Position numbers and translations under genes: made by a program
In this document: one piece after another, positions 3,864-16,278 of the stretch
Layout of the letters: each line of letters begins with the position of its first letter
How positions within the stretch are numbered: the first letter of the stretch is position 1
Origin: Candidatus Bathyarchaeota archaeon
GTDB taxonomy: Archaea > Thermoproteota > Bathyarchaeia > Bathyarchaeales > Bathycorpusculaceae
Assembly: GCA_026014725.1 (NCBI GenBank)
Contig: JAOZHV010000044.1
Location: forward strand, 216,272 to 280,271
Direction of reading: 5' to 3'
Length of the DNA: 64,000 nt
The notes under the pieces: generated by a model
Database searches by the model: none
The model's input: only the letters and a program-made list of their open reading frames with translations
Told to the model about the DNA's origin: nothing

Positions 3864-4271
3864 TCAGAGTTGAATTCGTTTTATCTCCTTTACAACATCA
3901 ATATCTTTATCGTCGCTTATGATACTGTTTAATTTTCTATCGGCTGCTGAAGCGATATGGATAGAATCCCTAGGAGACAAGTTATATTTAGTCATAAGCG
4001 ATTGAGCTTGGCTCAAAATGTTTTCATCCACGCTGATGAATTCTAGGTTGAGGAACCCTAACAATTTTTGACCTTGACTTATTGCTTCACTCATCCCCAT
4101 AGTTTTCCGAACTACCCAAACGACTTCATCCCAAGTCAAAGTTGATGTGTACGCATGCAGTTTGCCGCTCTCTATATTTATCAAAATTTCTTTAGCTTTC
4201 TTTACTTTAGGCTCTACATCAGCAGTGTACAAAATTGGATACAGGAATACGTTAGAATCAACGTAGGCCAT
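3864..4271 (-). CDS. vapC: VapC-type PIN-domain ribonuclease toxin
   Basis: A 135-residue PIN domain. The acidic residues expected for metal-dependent RNA cleavage are visible: Asp in YVDSNVFLYP at the N-terminus, Glu in TWDEVVWV, Asp in SPRDSIHIASA, and Asp in IISDDKDID near the C-terminus. It is translated after the antitoxin gene and overlaps it by 14 bases (4258-4271), the usual arrangement of a VapBC toxin-antitoxin pair. The target RNA cannot be told from sequence. Confidence 0.9.
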   Translation of the reverse strand: MAYVDSNVFLYPILYTADVEPKVKKAKEILINIESGKLHAYTSTLTWDEVVWVVRKTMGMSEAISQGQKLLGFLNLEFISVDENILSQAQSLMTKYNLSPRDSIHIASAADRKLNSIISDDKDIDVVKEIKRIQL

Positions 4272-4509
4272 GGCGCTCTTCGACTTCTGAAGTGATTAAC
4301 TCTTTAATATTCACTCGTTTTTTTAGCTTCGGAGAAGCGGTACTTATGAAGTATTCAGTATAGCTACCTTTAACTTGAGGCTTCTTGATTACAATTTCTT
4401 GATCTCTCAATTCAAGGGTTACTTCAACGCCGGGCTTTAATCCAAGGGCTTCTCGCATTCGTTTAGGGATTACAACTTGTCCCTTTTGTCCAACATTTTT
4501 TGTGGGCAT
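4258..4509 (-). CDS. vapB: AbrB/MazE-fold antitoxin VapB
   Basis: An 83-residue protein. Its first 45 residues are a SpoVT/AbrB DNA-binding hairpin (GQKGQVVIPKRMREALGL, then PGVEVTLELRDQEIVI). Its C-terminal half is the variable toxin-neutralising tail. As in other VapB proteins it should dimerise, bind its own promoter and mask the VapC active site. A GGTGG ribosome site lies just before the ATG, and an AT-rich TATA-like stretch (GTATAATTA) lies about 15-25 bases upstream, so the leader is very short. Confidence 0.9.
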   Translation of the reverse strand: MPTKNVGQKGQVVIPKRMREALGLKPGVEVTLELRDQEIVIKKPQVKGSYTEYFISTASPKLKKRVNIKELITSEVEERHGLR

Positions 4510-6713: not shown

Positions 6714-6722
6714 TATATAAAA
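6714..6722 (+). promoter_or_regulatory. TATA box of the Smc5/6-like operon
   Basis: TATATAAAA lies 92 bases before the SMC start codon and is preceded by A-rich sequence (CCAAAAAACATG) that could act as a BRE. Transcription would begin near 6745, giving a leader of about 70 bases. Confidence 0.5.
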
Positions 6723-6813: not shown

Positions 6814-8736
6814 ATGCTTATCCAAGAGCTGATCCTTGAAAACTTCATGAGTTACGAGTACGCCAGAGTACCCCTAAAACAAGGCGTAAACGTAATCGGC
6901 GGACCAAACGGAGCAGGAAAATCCTCACTTCTTTTGGCAATCTCCGTTGGCTTGGGACAATCCTACACGGAACGCTCCAGAAAACTAAGCGACTTAATAC
7001 GCTGGGGACAAGACCAAGCCCGAGTAACACTCATCCTCGACAACAGCAAGATGGGCAACAAACGCCCCGTAGCCAAATACCAAAAAGACCAACTCTTCCT
7101 AACCCGCATTTTACGCCGAGACGGCAAGTACTGGTTTGAACTCGAAAACCGAGCCGTTGGCAAACAAGACGTTGAACGCTTGCTCGGCAAGTTCGGCGTT
7201 GACCCCGACAACATGCTAATCATAATGCACCAAAACATGGTGGAACAATTCAGCGTTCTCAGCAACACGGAAAAATTGCGCATGGTTGAAGCCGCAGTCG
7301 GCTTAGAACCTTTCCGAGAAAACGTAGTGCAAGCCAAAACCAAACTGATGCGCATCCTAAGCCAAGAAGAATCCGTCAGCAAACTCCTCGAACAAGCCCA
7401 ACAAACCCTCAATTACTGGCACGAACAATACGAGAAATACCAACAAAAAAAGCAACTGCAACTCAAACGGCGATTCTTAGACCGTGAACTCGTTTGGGCA
7501 GAAGTCGAAAGACGCGAAAGCACCGTTAAGGGTTTGCAGGCAAGCTTTAACAAGACTCAGCAAGCACTGGGCAAGATTGAGGACGAGTGGCAAGCGGCAA
7601 TCAGCCAAATTGATGCCCAACAAACCCAACAGCAATCCCTCAGAGGAGAAATCAAATCACTGTTTGATGAGCGCTTAAGCTTGGAACGTGAAATAGCACA
7701 AAACGAATCCGTCTTATCGCTGATTACTCAGCTGTTGAGTGAAACCCAAGTTATTGAAAATCAAATTTCAAACCCAAGCCAACTCAAACTGCTACGGAGC
7801 GAGAACCTAAAAGAAATGCTGGAAAACTCTAAGCAACAAATCGAAAGGGCAAACGAGCAAGTGAAAGAAAACCAAACCAAACTGCTCAATTTGGAAGATT
7901 CCACTGACAAAGTAACTGCGCAAGCCTTAGAGAAGCGCGTGAGCCTTGCCTTGCTAGAGTTCAAAAAAGCCAGCACAATTGCAGATTTAAAAAGCGTTGA
8001 AGAATCCCTAAAAGAAGCACAAGAAGCACTAAACACGGCAATCCAGAAAGCACAAGAATCGGGCGAACGCATTGCAGTCCTCAAAAGCGCCAACGATGTT
8101 TTGGATGAAATCCGCTTAACTGAGGGGCACTTAGCGGCGCTCTCTGATGTTTCAGAAGACATCGAACGCCAATACGAATCCTACTCAAAACTCTACTTAG
8201 AACTCAAAGAAAAAGCCGCACTAGTAGCAGAGAACCGAGAGAAAACGCTCGAGGAAGTCAGAACCCGCATGCAAGCATGGCACAGCGTAATGGAGAGCCT
8301 GCTTGAACGCGTCAACATAGAGTACCAAAAAATCATGAGCCAAACGCTTGCGTCGGGCGAAGTGCAGCTCTCAAACACTCAAGACATTGAAACCGCAGGC
8401 TTAGAAATCTATGTGGGATTCAAGGGCGGCAAACCCGTGGCACTGGACGCTTACACGCAAAGCGGAGGAGAACGAACAACAGCTACTATGGCTTTCCTCT
8501 TAGCCCTCCAACAGCACGTGCGTTCGTCGTTCCGAGCAGTAGACGAGTACGACATCCACATGGACCCGAAAAACCGCGAGATGATTGCGAAAGTTCTGGT
8601 TTCTATCATTAAGGATGCGAGTGCTCAGTACGTGGTGATTACGCCCAGCCAAATCACTTTTGCCCAGCAAGATGCCAACGTCATCACGGTTCAGAACATT
8701 GAAGGCAAATCAGTCGTGCGTGAGGTAACCGCCTAA
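6814..8736 (+). CDS. Short SMC-family ATPase resembling Smc5/Smc6 heads
   Basis: A 640-residue ABC ATPase of the SMC/Rad50 class, predicted to bind and move DNA using ATP. Walker A is GPNGAGKSS (residues 30-38), the ABC signature SGGERT is at 550-555, and Walker B/D-loop is FRAVDEYDIHMDPKNR with the catalytic Asp-Glu at 577-578. Three features resemble eukaryotic Smc5/Smc6 more than Smc1-4 or Rad50: the opening LENFMSYEYA, the LLLAISVGLGQ after Walker A, and a DEYDIHMD D-loop (Smc6 has DEFDVFMD). Coiled coil spans roughly residues 170-500, but there is no globular hinge and no Rad50 zinc-hook CxxC. The protein is about half the size of a usual SMC. Its stop overlaps the next start (TAATG), so it is translationally coupled to a kleisin-like and a KITE-like gene. 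Family is sure; subfamily is inferred. Confidence 0.85.
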   Translation: MLIQELILENFMSYEYARVPLKQGVNVIGGPNGAGKSSLLLAISVGLGQSYTERSRKLSDLIRWGQDQARVTLILDNSKMGNKRPVAKYQKDQLFLTRILRRDGKYWFELENRAVGKQDVERLLGKFGVDPDNMLIIMHQNMVEQFSVLSNTEKLRMVEAAVGLEPFRENVVQAKTKLMRILSQEESVSKLLEQAQQTLNYWHEQYEKYQQKKQLQLKRRFLDRELVWAEVERRESTVKGLQASFNKTQQALGKIEDEWQAAISQIDAQQTQQQSLRGEIKSLFDERLSLEREIAQNESVLSLITQLLSETQVIENQISNPSQLKLLRSENLKEMLENSKQQIERANEQVKENQTKLLNLEDSTDKVTAQALEKRVSLALLEFKKASTIADLKSVEESLKEAQEALNTAIQKAQESGERIAVLKSANDVLDEIRLTEGHLAALSDVSEDIERQYESYSKLYLELKEKAALVAENREKTLEEVRTRMQAWHSVMESLLERVNIEYQKIMSQTLASGEVQLSNTQDIETAGLEIYVGFKGGKPVALDAYTQSGGERTTATMAFLLALQQHVRSSFRAVDEYDIHMDPKNREMIAKVLVSIIKDASAQYVVITPSQITFAQQDANVITVQNIEGKSVVREVTA

Positions 8737-9563
8737 TGCAGACAACAAAAGACCACAAGCAACTAGGCAAAGAGCGGCTGGAACGCATTATTGAAATGTG
8801 CATCGCCATCGAAAACCACACCGTTGATCCCTTCACGCTGGAAATTGACGAAATCATCAGGGTTGTTAAGGAGTATTTTCCGCATTGGGAGCACCCAGAC
8901 GAGCTAAAACTTGACGCTGAAGCACTTCATCACTTGGCAACGGTGATTAAGATGCAGAGCGAATGGGTCAAGCAACGCTCAACTGCCCTTTACACTGACC
9001 CGTTCCTGCTGGAAGAAAAAATCCGCCAAACAGACAAACAGGGCATGGTAGAAGTTTTTCTTGGCGCTTGGAGCCCAATCATCGAGTTCGAGCAGCTTAG
9101 CCTTCACGGTTTAGCTCAGGGCTTGCTGTATTGGGAAGCACTTCCGCCCATGGGCGAGCGGTGGAAAGACATTGAAGTTTCTGAGACAGCAATGGGCGCG
9201 GTGAGCCGTGACGAACTCATCAAACAGCGCGTCTTGAGCGACAAGGAATTTTCAGAAGAACTAGAGTGCTACTGGCACGAACTCAAAACCAAAGCCGCCG
9301 AGAAGAGCGCTGACGGCAAAATCGCCTACTGGGATTTCATCGGCGCAGACACTTACGAGGAAACCGTGCAACGCGCCTTCATAACCAGTTTCCTTGTGAC
9401 TTACGGCTACGCTACTTTGGAAGTTGACAGGCTTGAAGAAACCGTCTTCCTCCAACCTTACGATACACCCCGAAACGCGGCTTTGACGGTGCAGTCAACG
9501 TCAGTGCCGATTGCCGTGTCCTGCGAAGATTGGCAAAAATGGAAAAGAGGCGAAACACCTTGA
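8736..9563 (+). CDS. Kleisin/ScpA-like partner of the SMC protein
   Basis: A 275-residue protein starting inside the SMC stop codon (TAATG). Residues about 20-95 look like a kleisin N-terminal helical domain: ...LDAEALHHLATVIKMQSEW followed by DPFLLEE resembles the ScpA segment that embraces the SMC neck. The last ~80 residues (WDFIGADTYEETVQRAFITS, then a short hairpin ending FLQPY) resemble the kleisin C-terminal winged helix that caps the other SMC head. A charged, less ordered middle joins them. Known kleisins bridge the two ATPase heads and carry KITE or HEAT subunits. Assignment rests on shape and gene order, not on a search. Confidence 0.55.
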   Translation: MQTTKDHKQLGKERLERIIEMCIAIENHTVDPFTLEIDEIIRVVKEYFPHWEHPDELKLDAEALHHLATVIKMQSEWVKQRSTALYTDPFLLEEKIRQTDKQGMVEVFLGAWSPIIEFEQLSLHGLAQGLLYWEALPPMGERWKDIEVSETAMGAVSRDELIKQRVLSDKEFSEELECYWHELKTKAAEKSADGKIAYWDFIGADTYEETVQRAFITSFLVTYGYATLEVDRLEETVFLQPYDTPRNAALTVQSTSVPIAVSCEDWQKWKRGETP

Positions 9564-10213
9564 GCAAGAAGAAAGGCGTTTACGGCAGCAAAGTCAAGAA
9601 GGCAACACAGATGCTCTTCTACAAGCGGCACCAGAAGCCAGGCGTGAAAGGCTGGGAACTGCACAAGGCGTTGGGTTCAGACTACCTGAAAGTGCTCGAT
9701 TTGCTGGATGACTATTTGAAGCCGCTTGATTTGCAAGTGAAAACCATATTTGAAGAAGAGAAAACACCAGAGAAGCCAACGCTTGAGGAGATGGACAGGG
9801 CACGGTTCTTTGTAACGTTGCGCGGCGGCACTGTGAGCAAGGACAAGCTGATGGGTTGGCGTATCGACGACTTAGCAGGCTTAGCCATAACAATCTCGTT
9901 CATTATCAGCAAGAAGGGGCAAGCCACACGAAAAGACGTAGAAACGCTTTTGGCGGAAAAAATGCCCGGCTGGAAAGTTGGCTTAAACGTTGACCGCTAC
10001 ATCCGCTACGGCTACTTGATGCAGGACGACAAAGGCATGCTCTATTTGGATTGGCGCACCAGAGCGGAAGTGGATGAGAAAGCGCTGATTGGCATGTTGT
10101 TGTCGGCTGAGAAGCAGGCGGGGGCAGAGGCAGAACCAGCTGAGCAGCCAGAGGAAGAAGCGCAGGAAAATCAGCCAGATGAAACGGTGCAAGAAGAGCA
10201 AGAAACCGACTAG
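9560..10213 (+). CDS. Tandem winged-helix KITE protein resembling Nse3/MAGE
   Basis: A 217-residue protein from the TTG at 9560, whose start overlaps the kleisin stop (TTGA) and is preceded by GAGG at 9547-9550. An in-frame ATG at 9530 is the alternative. The first winged-helix-like unit spans about residues 10-70 (KATQMLFYKRHQ, then GWELHKALG, LKPLDLQV). The second spans about 95-180 (LAGLAITISFIISKKGQAT, DVETLLAEK, IRYGYLMQ, MLYLDWRTRAEVDEKAL). The second half follows the Nse3/MAGE homology domain closely: a hydrophobic helix, a short loop and helix, a basic recognition helix, an aromatic wing and a final PRA-H-E-like helix. An acidic Glu-rich tail follows (about 185-217). It is predicted to sit on the kleisin and bind DNA. 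Confidence 0.6.
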   Translation: MSKKKGVYGSKVKKATQMLFYKRHQKPGVKGWELHKALGSDYLKVLDLLDDYLKPLDLQVKTIFEEEKTPEKPTLEEMDRARFFVTLRGGTVSKDKLMGWRIDDLAGLAITISFIISKKGQATRKDVETLLAEKMPGWKVGLNVDRYIRYGYLMQDDKGMLYLDWRTRAEVDEKALIGMLLSAEKQAGAEAEPAEQPEEEAQENQPDETVQEEQETD

Positions 10214-10275
10214 ACACAGTTTCAATTTTTCTTTTTGTAGATAGTGTTTTAAGTTTGTTTTTGTTCTTGTTATTT

Positions 10276-10674
10276 ATGCAAATTGGATACATTTTTTTAT
10301 GCACCACCTACGACATAACCGAGTGCACCAAGAGCAAACGGTTTTCTTGCTCGGACAGGCAAGTTGACACCTCAAAAATCAAAGGAAACGACATTGTTTT
10401 CTTGTTTAATGACAAGACTGGAACGCTGGTTGGTCCGTTTACGGCTGGCGAATCCGAAAACTTTGAAGAGGGCGCTCTTTACAGTGGCGTCCAGAAAGAC
10501 CAGCTTTCAGAAAACATCACCGTGGAGTGGGAAAACCTGCACGAACTAAAAAATGCCCCAGACAAAATACCGTTCCTCAAAGACATTAAGTCGTGTCCGC
10601 TGCCTGCGCTTTGGACTCAAGAACTGCTGACAGCATTAAAACAAGCCCCACCCTACACCCAGACACAGGAATGA
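10276..10674 (+). CDS. DCD/PUA-like domain protein
   Basis: A 132-residue soluble protein. The motif order YIFLCTTYDITECTKSKRF, then KGNDIVFLFNDKTGTLVGPF matches the development-and-cell-death (DCD) domain of plants and the related PUA/ASCH/EVE-like barrel. Those families bind nucleic acids or modified bases; its own ligand is unknown. An in-frame TTG at 10255 would add seven hydrophobic residues, but ATG 10276 leads straight into the first conserved strand. It lies 62 bases after the SMC-kleisin-KITE operon in the same direction, so co-expression is possible but not shown. Confidence 0.6.
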   Translation: MQIGYIFLCTTYDITECTKSKRFSCSDRQVDTSKIKGNDIVFLFNDKTGTLVGPFTAGESENFEEGALYSGVQKDQLSENITVEWENLHELKNAPDKIPFLKDIKSCPLPALWTQELLTALKQAPPYTQTQE

Positions 10675-12348: not shown

Positions 12349-12942
12349 TTAATTTATCCAGATGGTTGCTAAGTTATTAGCTGCTGCGCCTTGAATTACT
12401 GTGTATATTCCATTGGTCTTTGTTGCTTTTCCAACATTGTTTGATGTTACTTTGTCGCCTGCATTTAGTGTTTCTGCTGCGTAAACTTGTGCTCGACCTG
12501 ACTTTATGATTTTTACCTTCTGGCCTTGATTACTCTGCAACGCGTATGTGACTGTTGCAACAGGCACACCATAAACGTTTGTTGATCCAGTAGATTTGGT
12601 GACAACATTGTTGCCTTGTATGCTGCAGAAATGATTTGCTTCAACACCAGACGCATCAACAGTACAACCTACATCCACTATGATAGCGCTTAGATTCCCA
12701 GTTGCCCCATTGCTTCGTTTTATGTACAATGTATCGAATGCACCTGCGCAGAGGTCGCCCGCAGGGACATATTGTTGAGAGTCTCCATTATATCTATATA
12801 ATCCTCCAAGGTCAGGACGGTTTACGCAATGACCTGGTCCAATAGCCGGGGGATAGACAAAAGTGCCTGTCCGATACCCATAAACTGTTTCGGAGTCAGC
12901 TAAGGTAATCTGTGGGGGGGTCGGTTGAGCCTTGAAAACCAT
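12349..12942 (-). CDS. C-terminal part of a tail-fibre/decoration-like protein (frameshifted from the upstream gene)
   Basis: This 197-residue frame overlaps the end of 12896-14302 in another phase. Deleting one C from the C7 tract (plus-strand G7, 12914-12920) would join them into one protein of about 660 residues reading ...GSTDPP then QITLADSE. The second half is beta-rich and small-residue-rich (AQVYAAETLNAGDKVTSNNV, then IQGAAANNLATIWIN). It resembles short phage head-decoration or fibre-tip domains (DUF2190-like). The apparent start lies within the overlap and is probably not used if the gene is intact. Confidence 0.5.
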   Translation of the reverse strand: MVFKAQPTPPQITLADSETVYGYRTGTFVYPPAIGPGHCVNRPDLGGLYRYNGDSQQYVPAGDLCAGAFDTLYIKRSNGATGNLSAIIVDVGCTVDASGVEANHFCSIQGNNVVTKSTGSTNVYGVPVATVTYALQSNQGQKVKIIKSGRAQVYAAETLNAGDKVTSNNVGKATKTNGIYTVIQGAAANNLATIWIN

Positions 12943-14302
12943 GGCCTAACATGATTGCTCCACCTCCGTAGCTTTTCCAAGGATCGCTTGTACAGAATAG
13001 AGCGCCGTAGGTTTGAATATCTTTTTCAGCCCACAAACCATGATCTGTCGCAATTATGGGACAATAATTAGTTCCCAACGGATCTGCGGGGTCTTGTACC
13101 ATTACCAGAAAGAAACTTGAGCATTGCCCGTCAAGAAAACGATGTTGCCCGTCAGGTTGCGTTGTGTCCTTGAAAAAGATATTACCGTTTCCAAGAGTAG
13201 AATACGCATGGGGAAATGGCAAAAGGCATTGAGTTGGGAGTTGCAAAGCGTTGTTACCAGTTAACATTATTTGGGGCGCATTAGTTTCAATGCTTGCACC
13301 GCTGGCAGTCACTAGTCCTGCTGCAGTGCTCTGAACTGGAAGTTTTAGTTGTCCATCTTGGGTTAAGGCTGATAGCAAGTTCCAGTTTGAACCATTGAAG
13401 TAATCGTTTTTTATTTTATATTTGCTGTCTGTATCGTAGTTTCCGAGTATTCGCATTTTTTTGTTGTTGTATGCGTCTTTGAATTCTATTGCGCCCGTGT
13501 TTGTGCCTGTTATTCCGCCGGTTGAACTAGCGAATGTAATTGAACTCCCTGATGCTGGTAATTGTAAATGTCCATTGCAAGTAGTGTCTCCGTTAACAGT
13601 TAACGTCTCTGCAACTGTTGCATCCTCATGTACCGTCAAATTCCCCACTTCAAGGTCTTCATACTCAACAGTTTCTTCTTTGAATGTTGCAATGCATCCT
13701 GCCCAAGCTGGTGTACCGCTGGTGGTTGCAGAAACGTTAGCGGTTCCTGTGGTGCTTACGATTTTTTCGCAGTATGCTGCTTCTATGCTCCAAGTGAGGG
13801 CTCCGTCTAGCATGGTAAAGTTGTTTGTTGGATTTGATAAACCTGCGGAACCGCTTGTACCGCATAAGCTTCCTACCCATACTTCATTTGCTTGAGTTGT
13901 TGTAGCGGTTGTTCCTGAATCTACAGTGTTACCGTACCCACTGTTGCTTGCTCTTTTATCCAAGGGTGATGACATTAAGCCACTGTATTCACAAACATTA
14001 CATATGTGATAGTAAAGTGACTGCGTTAAGTTAACAGTAATATTCTTTGATGCACTACTAAGAACGTTGCCGAGCCATATTTCAGATTCTGCTACATTGT
14101 TAGCGCTTACTGAAGATCTAATTTTACTCCAGCTAACGCCGCTTTGAGAAATAGATGAAACGTGGCAATCGCCGCCGTCAGAACCGTTTGCTATTGCAGC
14201 GATTAAGGTATTTCCGACAGTAGGCGTATTATTTAGCGTGACATTTATTGTTGTACTTTGATTTGAAGTTCCTCTTTTATACTGGATTCTTGTTATGGTC
14301 AC
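12896..14302 (-). CDS. Virus-like/tail-fibre-like surface protein, N-terminal part
   Basis: A 468-residue beta-rich protein with a GTG start at 14302 and a strong AGGAGGG ribosome site 8 bases upstream. Residues 1-210 form a jelly-roll-like module, rich in Thr/Ser/Asn, of the kind seen in phage fibres and cell-surface proteins. Residues 215-290 resemble a fibre shaft entry (LTVNGDTTCNGHLQLPASGS). The rest is Gly/Thr-rich with many repeats of short strands. There is no signal peptide, which fits a virion component or a protein exported another way. The frame ends at TGA 12896 because of the C7 shift. No capsid, portal or terminase gene is nearby, so this is an isolated cassette or a provirus relic. 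Confidence 0.6.
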   Translation of the reverse strand: MTITRIQYKRGTSNQSTTINVTLNNTPTVGNTLIAAIANGSDGGDCHVSSISQSGVSWSKIRSSVSANNVAESEIWLGNVLSSASKNITVNLTQSLYYHICNVCEYSGLMSSPLDKRASNSGYGNTVDSGTTATTTQANEVWVGSLCGTSGSAGLSNPTNNFTMLDGALTWSIEAAYCEKIVSTTGTANVSATTSGTPAWAGCIATFKEETVEYEDLEVGNLTVHEDATVAETLTVNGDTTCNGHLQLPASGSSITFASSTGGITGTNTGAIEFKDAYNNKKMRILGNYDTDSKYKIKNDYFNGSNWNLLSALTQDGQLKLPVQSTAAGLVTASGASIETNAPQIMLTGNNALQLPTQCLLPFPHAYSTLGNGNIFFKDTTQPDGQHRFLDGQCSSFFLVMVQDPADPLGTNYCPIIATDHGLWAEKDIQTYGALFCTSDPWKSYGGGAIMLGHGFQGSTDPPTDYLS

Positions 14303-15624: not shown

Positions 15625-16278
15625 TTGTCAGAAAGATTCGCTAAGAAATGGGAAAGTAAACGGGAAGATGAGCCATTCACAAATCGCATAAAAGACGCGG
15701 TAAAACCACCAGGTCCACTAAAACCGCGACTCGACTTTGCAGTCAGGCGCATCGAACTCCAAGTGCAAAAACTCGACCAAGCAACAGACCGATTCAGCCA
15801 AAGAGACAAAGCAATCTTCGCCCGCATCGTTGACGCCTACACAAAACACGACAGCGCACGCGCAAACGTATTCGCCAACGAACTAGCCGAAGTCCGAAAA
15901 ATGTCAAAACTAATCATGAACGCCAAACTCGCCCTAGAACAAATCACCTTAAGATTACGAACAGTATCAGAACTAGGCGACGTAGTATCCACACTCGGCC
16001 CAGCCGTAGGAGTCCTACGATCAGTCCGAGCAGGCTTAACAAGCGTATTCCCAGAAGCAGAAAACGAACTAGGCGAAATCGGCAACATGCTCAGCGGAAT
16101 CATGATCGAAGCAGGCCAAGGCAGCGGAATGACACTCAACTTCGACACAGTAAACGAAGACGCAGCCAAGATTCTCACCGAAGCAGCAACAGTCGCAGAG
16201 CAGAAGATCAAAGACAAATTCCCAGACCTACCAGCAGGAATCCCAGCCGCCCCAACTTCAGAAGCGGAGAAATTCTAA
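15625..16278 (+). CDS. cdvB: ESCRT-III/CdvB-family protein lacking the winged helix
   Basis: A 217-residue ESCRT-III (Snf7/Vps24-like) protein that should polymerise at the division neck. The core helices run from LKPRLDFAVRRIELQVQKLD through SKLIMNAKLALEQITLRLRT to about residue 140. The C-terminus contains FPDLPAGIPAAP, a proline-containing MIM2-like motif expected to bind the MIT domain of CdvC. There is no C-terminal winged helix, so it resembles the shorter CdvB1/B2-type paralogues. The start is TTG at 15625 with GAGGT 9 bases upstream. A GTATAAGA element near 15578 is a likely TATA box. First gene of the cluster; 17 bases before cdvA. Confidence 0.9.
   Translation: MSERFAKKWESKREDEPFTNRIKDAVKPPGPLKPRLDFAVRRIELQVQKLDQATDRFSQRDKAIFARIVDAYTKHDSARANVFANELAEVRKMSKLIMNAKLALEQITLRLRTVSELGDVVSTLGPAVGVLRSVRAGLTSVFPEAENELGEIGNMLSGIMIEAGQGSGMTLNFDTVNEDAAKILTEAATVAEQKIKDKFPDLPAGIPAAPTSEAEKF

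Follow-up and report, generated by a model that had tools for sequence, protein, structure and literature searches.

The window analysed here, a stretch of 64,000 nucleotides from contig JAOZHV010000044.1 of a Candidatus Bathyarchaeota archaeon (assembly GCA_026014725.1), harbours at positions 6814-10213 of the forward strand a three-gene operon, which very likely encodes a compact SMC-kleisin complex with KITE subunits that belongs to the lineage of Smc5/6, the machine that repairs DNA and restricts viruses in human and yeast cells. The three open reading frames, which a first-pass annotation of the DNA had read as an SMC ATPase, a kleisin and a winged-helix partner, were all found at the proposed coordinates and on the proposed strand. 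Their arrangement is not a product of chance, since relatives keep the same order and strand, in 20/20 loci at the level of the order and in 37/40 more distant loci, with the SMC gene placed elsewhere in the genome in the remaining three distant genomes. As previously claimed, the kleisin ATG at 8736 sits within the stop codon of the SMC gene (TAATG, 8734-8738), but the KITE start formerly placed at TTG 9560 is more likely the ATG at 9539 in the same frame, because the starts of most relatives align with that ATG; the KITE gene would then share 25 nucleotides with the kleisin gene. The features of the operon are as follows.

6814..8736, forward strand: SMC gene, Smc5/6-related ATPase of 640 aa without detectable hinge (open reading frame, PDB matches, head tree)
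6901..6927, forward strand: Walker A motif GPNGAGKSS, residues 30-38 (sequence; nearly invariant in 42 relatives)
7309..8238, forward strand: coiled-coil hairpin between the head halves, approximately residues 166-475 (boundaries inferred)
8461..8475, forward strand: ABC signature SGGER, residues 550-554 (sequence; invariant in 42 relatives)
8530..8577, forward strand: Walker B / D-loop FRAVDEYDIHMDPKNR (alignments with PDB Smc5 and Smc6)
8736..9563, forward strand: Nse4-like kleisin gene, 275 aa (Pfam Nse4_C, PDB profile, Foldseek)
9345..9542, forward strand: Nse4_C-type C-terminal winged helix of the kleisin, residues 204-269 (Pfam; low-confidence model)
9539..10213, forward strand: KITE gene (tandem winged helix), 224 aa from ATG 9539 (AlphaFold2 model, Foldseek, Pfam)
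6714..6722, forward strand: possible TATA box TATATAAAA, about 90 nucleotides 5' of the SMC start (proposed from the sequence)

Lineage and architecture of the SMC protein

Compared as a single sequence with the PDB, the operon SMC matches Smc5 best (8e-30), followed by Smc6 (2e-26), prokaryotic Smc (1e-21), Smc3 (4e-16) and Rad50 (3e-8), and a profile of 42 relatives likewise places Smc5 (1e-70) and Smc6 (5e-67) before prokaryotic Smc (3e-52). The canonical Smc encoded by the same genome gives the reverse order, with Pyrococcus Smc at 345 bits, Smc1-4 at 116-177 and Smc5 at 35 bits. At the level of motifs, the Walker B/D-loop FRAVDEYDIHMDPKNR follows the FR..DE....MD..N pattern of Smc5 (FRVVDEINQGMDSRNE) and Smc6 (FRCLDEFDVYMDMVNR).

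The head tree was built from the head halves of Smc5, Smc6, Smc1 and Smc3 taken from PDB alignments, and from canonical SMC and Rad50 sequences of the source genome and related genomes; yeast Smc1 and Smc3 sequences served as probes, and only the letters of PDB entries were used in the tree. With a eukaryotic sampling of only three Smc5/6 and three Smc1/Smc3 sequences, the rooted tree separates the operon SMC family, Smc5 and Smc6 from the rest with a support of 99.4/99 (SH-like approximate likelihood ratio test/ultrafast bootstrap), the archaeal operon family being monophyletic (98.9/97) and Smc5 and Smc6 being joined weakly (54.6/79). Approximately unbiased (AU) tests, run on a subset of 22 sequences, reject a grouping of the operon SMC with canonical archaeal SMC (2e-71), with canonical SMC together with Smc1 and Smc3 (0.017) and with Rad50 (0.0015), and favour no one branching order among the operon SMC family, Smc5 and Smc6. 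The expected branching of the heads with Smc5 and Smc6, rather than with Rad50 or canonical archaeal SMC, is upheld by the split and the rejected groupings. Tree, Pfam and motif tests together rule out the prokaryotic Smc-ScpAB, Rad50/RecN and ASRP assignments.

An archaeal protein of the Rad50/ASRP type (ClsN, Sph) next to unrelated genes could also present itself as a short SMC-like protein, and the ASRP profile does match, albeit weakly (66 bits versus a cut-off of 300). Such an identity is extremely improbable in view of the lack of a CxxC zinc hook in 57 operon-type SMCs, the AU rejection of the Rad50 grouping and the strict linkage to kleisin and KITE. Among 61 relatives, the SMC is found in exactly the same 44 as the kleisin, and both are missing from the other 17. 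The source genome also has two Mre11-Rad50 loci.

With respect to the architecture between the head halves, none of the 21 members of the operon SMC alignment matches SMC_hinge (PF06470); the canonical Smc of the source genome, which served as control, matches it at 1.2e-23. Conservation is lowest at residues 281-360, where a hinge would be located, and the single proline in that stretch, Pro321, probably lies near the turn of the hairpin. The simplest reading of the sequence is a short coiled-coil hairpin with arms of approximately 150 residues each. As Smc5/6 and canonical SMC both possess hinges, the loss of the hinge in the operon SMC is probably derived. Independently of the operon, in several canonical archaeal Smc proteins of the group (L189, L190, L191 and others) SSGERS replaces the usual SGGE signature.

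The Nse4-like kleisin and the KITE protein

The second protein, proposed to be kleisin-like, is matched to Nse4 by sequence as well as by fold. Pfam Nse4_C recognises 21/21 close and 34/48 diverse kleisin members, any other family at most two. Scanned across the phylum, Nse4_C is found in 65/300 genomes at E<=0.01, of which 10 exceed the cut-off of Pfam, all 10 with a match at the operon kleisin locus, and the matches coincide with loci found independently by the kleisin profile except for one weak match (G227). Against the PDB, a diverse kleisin profile retrieves yeast Nse4 (7e-6) and human EID3 (1.6e-4) before ScpA C-terminal domains, and when the AlphaFold2 model is compared with the PDB by Foldseek, yeast Nse4 takes the first two places, ahead of ScpA, Scc1 and more Nse4 chains. 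The modelled C-terminal winged helix resembles those of ScpA and Scc1 as well.

The third protein had been considered a tandem winged-helix protein similar to Nse3/MAGE, and it emerges as a KITE with Nse1/Nse3 as the closest solved folds. Its model (mean predicted local distance difference test score, pLDDT, of 80) consists of two winged-helix domains and finds its best counterparts in 7dg2 (Nse1-Nse3-Nse4), 5hvq (MAGE-G1-NSE1) and 8dk1 (JetABC), with MAGE proteins, then MukE and an ScpB-like protein further down. Among 49 relatives, Pfam detects MAGE in 10 (best 2.8e-4) and SMC_Nse1 in eight (best 3.3e-4), the next family in two, a sequence signal that is weak but specific. A single protein with likeness to both Nse3 and Nse1 would be the expected look of a KITE that precedes their duplication.

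These partners bear on whether the operon could be a second, divergent copy of the prokaryotic Smc-ScpA-ScpB condensin, with which it has the three-part composition in common; the C-terminal domain of ScpA comes next, after Nse4, among the matches of the kleisin, and the SMC_prok_A profile spans the operon SMC. However, the source genome separately encodes a canonical Smc-ScpA-ScpB, of which hinge, ScpA and ScpB are each recognised by Pfam, whereas the operon proteins are without an ScpA or ScpB match. As the tree at present sampling also rejects the grouping with canonical SMC, and the canonical Smc of the genome shows the reversed Smc5/Smc6 preference, a condensin copy is highly improbable.

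Distribution, genomic neighbourhood and possible function

The kleisin is present in 157/398 genomes of the phylum, and canonical Smc was recovered in 59 of the 61 relatives. In the six genomes examined there is one Smc5/6-type SMC per genome, and each locus has one KITE. Two genes recur in the vicinity of the operon. A large Lhr-type helicase is encoded within approximately 6 kb in 25/61 loci across several families, often convergent directly downstream. Helicases of this type are associated with DNA repair, and the second-best NCBIfam name of the neighbouring helicase is DNA-damage-response helicase. A conserved protein of approximately 230 aa is encoded in 24/61 loci, often divergent directly upstream of the SMC gene; it has no Pfam or NCBIfam match, weakly matches a single PHROG whose function is unknown, and is possibly an extra subunit or a regulator.

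L148:7640-10522, L160:2461-5304, L162:2502-5351 and others: Lhr-type helicase gene, convergent with the KITE gene
L049:3348-4043, L151:3401-4090, L161:8489-9223 and others: gene for the upstream protein of approximately 230 aa

This neighbourhood is pertinent to the alternative that the operon is an anti-plasmid or anti-virus module similar to Wadjet or Lamassu, in which an SMC-kleisin-KITE core senses foreign DNA. Eukaryotic Smc5/6 itself restricts extrachromosomal DNA (PMC10586767), JetABC KITE chains are among the best folds of the third protein, the PADLOC profiles mad3 and LmuB match the SMC and the presence of the system is patchy within a genus. On the other hand, a nuclease or effector does not recur in the neighbourhood of the 61 loci, in which not every neighbour was annotated singly, and what recurs instead is the Lhr-type helicase and the protein without family. 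The kleisin lacks a match in phage and plasmid collections, and the PADLOC matches reflect generic ATPase similarity, with the tree placing the SMC with Smc5/6. A defence module is consequently judged unlikely, if less remote than a condensin copy or a Rad50/ASRP-type protein.

For the complex of the Smc5/6 lineage, the predicted stoichiometry is probably SMC2-kleisin1-KITE2. Two identical SMC heads would sandwich two ATP, and the kleisin would bridge them asymmetrically, binding one SMC at the neck through its N-terminal helices and the other at the head cap through its C-terminal winged helix. The KITE homodimer would be located on the middle stretch of the kleisin and help to clamp DNA on the engaged heads, with ATP hydrolysis driving DNA loading or loop capture. 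Lacking a hinge, the SMCs would have to pair through other contacts, presumably at the apex, and as the arms are short, any captured loop would be smaller. The machine may serve chromosome maintenance or DNA repair beside, not in place of, the Smc-ScpAB of the cell, perhaps together with the Lhr-type helicase often encoded nearby in relatives.

Several observations weigh against this assignment to a functional Smc5/6-type complex. The complex is predicted here from genes, sequences and single-chain models, and its role in DNA repair is inferred from neighbourhood and homology only. Confidence in the kleisin model is low overall (mean pLDDT 66) and highest in the C-terminal third. Sequence profiles of the KITE retrieve nothing significant from the PDB, which is why this subunit was assigned by fold and Pfam, and its likeness to Nse1/Nse3 in sequence is weak (best E of approximately 3e-4 for single members). 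With the hinge undetected, the SMCs need not form a classical closed ring. The presence in 44/61 close relatives is patchy, so that the system is dispensable, and in the window neither the Lhr-type helicase nor the gene for the protein of approximately 230 aa adjoins the operon; an Lhr-type homologue is encoded elsewhere in the source genome.

Other genes of the window were noted in passing. A CdvB/ESCRT-III (Snf7) gene at 15625-16278 lies approximately 5 kb downstream of the operon, and CdvB is near the operon also in L056, L058, L059 and L159. An open reading frame of 139 aa (10255-10674) has a weak match, just under the cut-off of Pfam, to the plant Development and Cell Death domain. On the reverse strand, 3864-4509 encodes a pair of a MazE-like antitoxin and a PIN-domain toxin, and 12349-14302 a phage-structural-like pair, a possible virus remnant, of which one member of 197 aa is cement/scaffold-like (Pfam Phage_cement; PHROG head scaffolding) and the partner of 468 aa is without family matches.

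Comparison with known SMC complexes

The surmise that archaeal Smc5/6-related SMC proteins had already been noted proved right, as such proteins were published in 2021 (Yoshinaga and Inagaki, 2021, cited in PMC9389158). The operon SMC very probably belongs to the same family, matched by the citing description only, and in the passages that cite the work a kleisin partner, a KITE partner and an operon are not mentioned. A description of the operon was not found in the open literature covered, which does not include the work by van Hooff et al. (2025; Cell Rep 44:115855) on the evolution of SMCs from archaeal ancestors.

Whether the system is ancestor-like, as the first-pass annotation suggested, is answered in part: the minimal set of partners agrees with this view, but the undetected hinge and the short arms look derived. 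The archaeal system is a derived cousin of Smc5/6 rather than an intact ancestor, because it has one SMC gene, one KITE gene, no RING and neither hinge nor zinc hook. A more detailed scenario, to which we give somewhat less than even credence, is that of a homomeric sister of Smc5/6, with a single SMC and a single KITE, which branched before the Smc5/Smc6 and Nse1/Nse3 duplications, the kleisin being kept as Nse4, and which lost the hinge of its SMC, yet is still a loop-capturing motor.

The origin of the Smc5/6 heterodimers is an open question, and the operon makes the duplication scenario directly testable. With a single SMC, an Nse4-like kleisin and a KITE that resembles both Nse1 and Nse3, this widespread operon is small enough to suit structural work and simple enough for asking how Smc5/6 arose and works, and an SMC-kleisin-KITE machine without detectable hinge would test the need for a hinge in SMC motors.

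Among known systems, Wadjet/JetABCD and MukBEF resemble the archaeal complex in overall composition and in the KITE fold, to which the fold search matched JetABC and MukE chains, but differ in SMC lineage, and a JetD-like nuclease is not part of the conserved archaeal neighbourhood. Smc-ScpA-ScpB shares the SMC-kleisin-KITE composition, with SMC and KITE as probable homodimers, but belongs to another SMC clade and has a hinge, long arms and subunits of the ScpA and ScpB families. In contrast to eukaryotic Smc5/6, the sole eukaryotic SMC complex that retains KITE subunits (PMC5228436), the archaeal system has one SMC gene and one KITE gene instead of two each, its KITE is without RING, its SMC is hingeless with short arms and its genes form one operon. 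Nse2 and Nse5/6 were not seen in the archaeal system; for the Nse2 SUMO ligase, a zf-Nse search of the source genome gave no match, as did its control. Common to both are the lack of evidence for HAWK subunits, the lineage of the SMC head, the Nse4-type kleisin and a KITE with tandem winged helices that has the Nse1/Nse3 fold.

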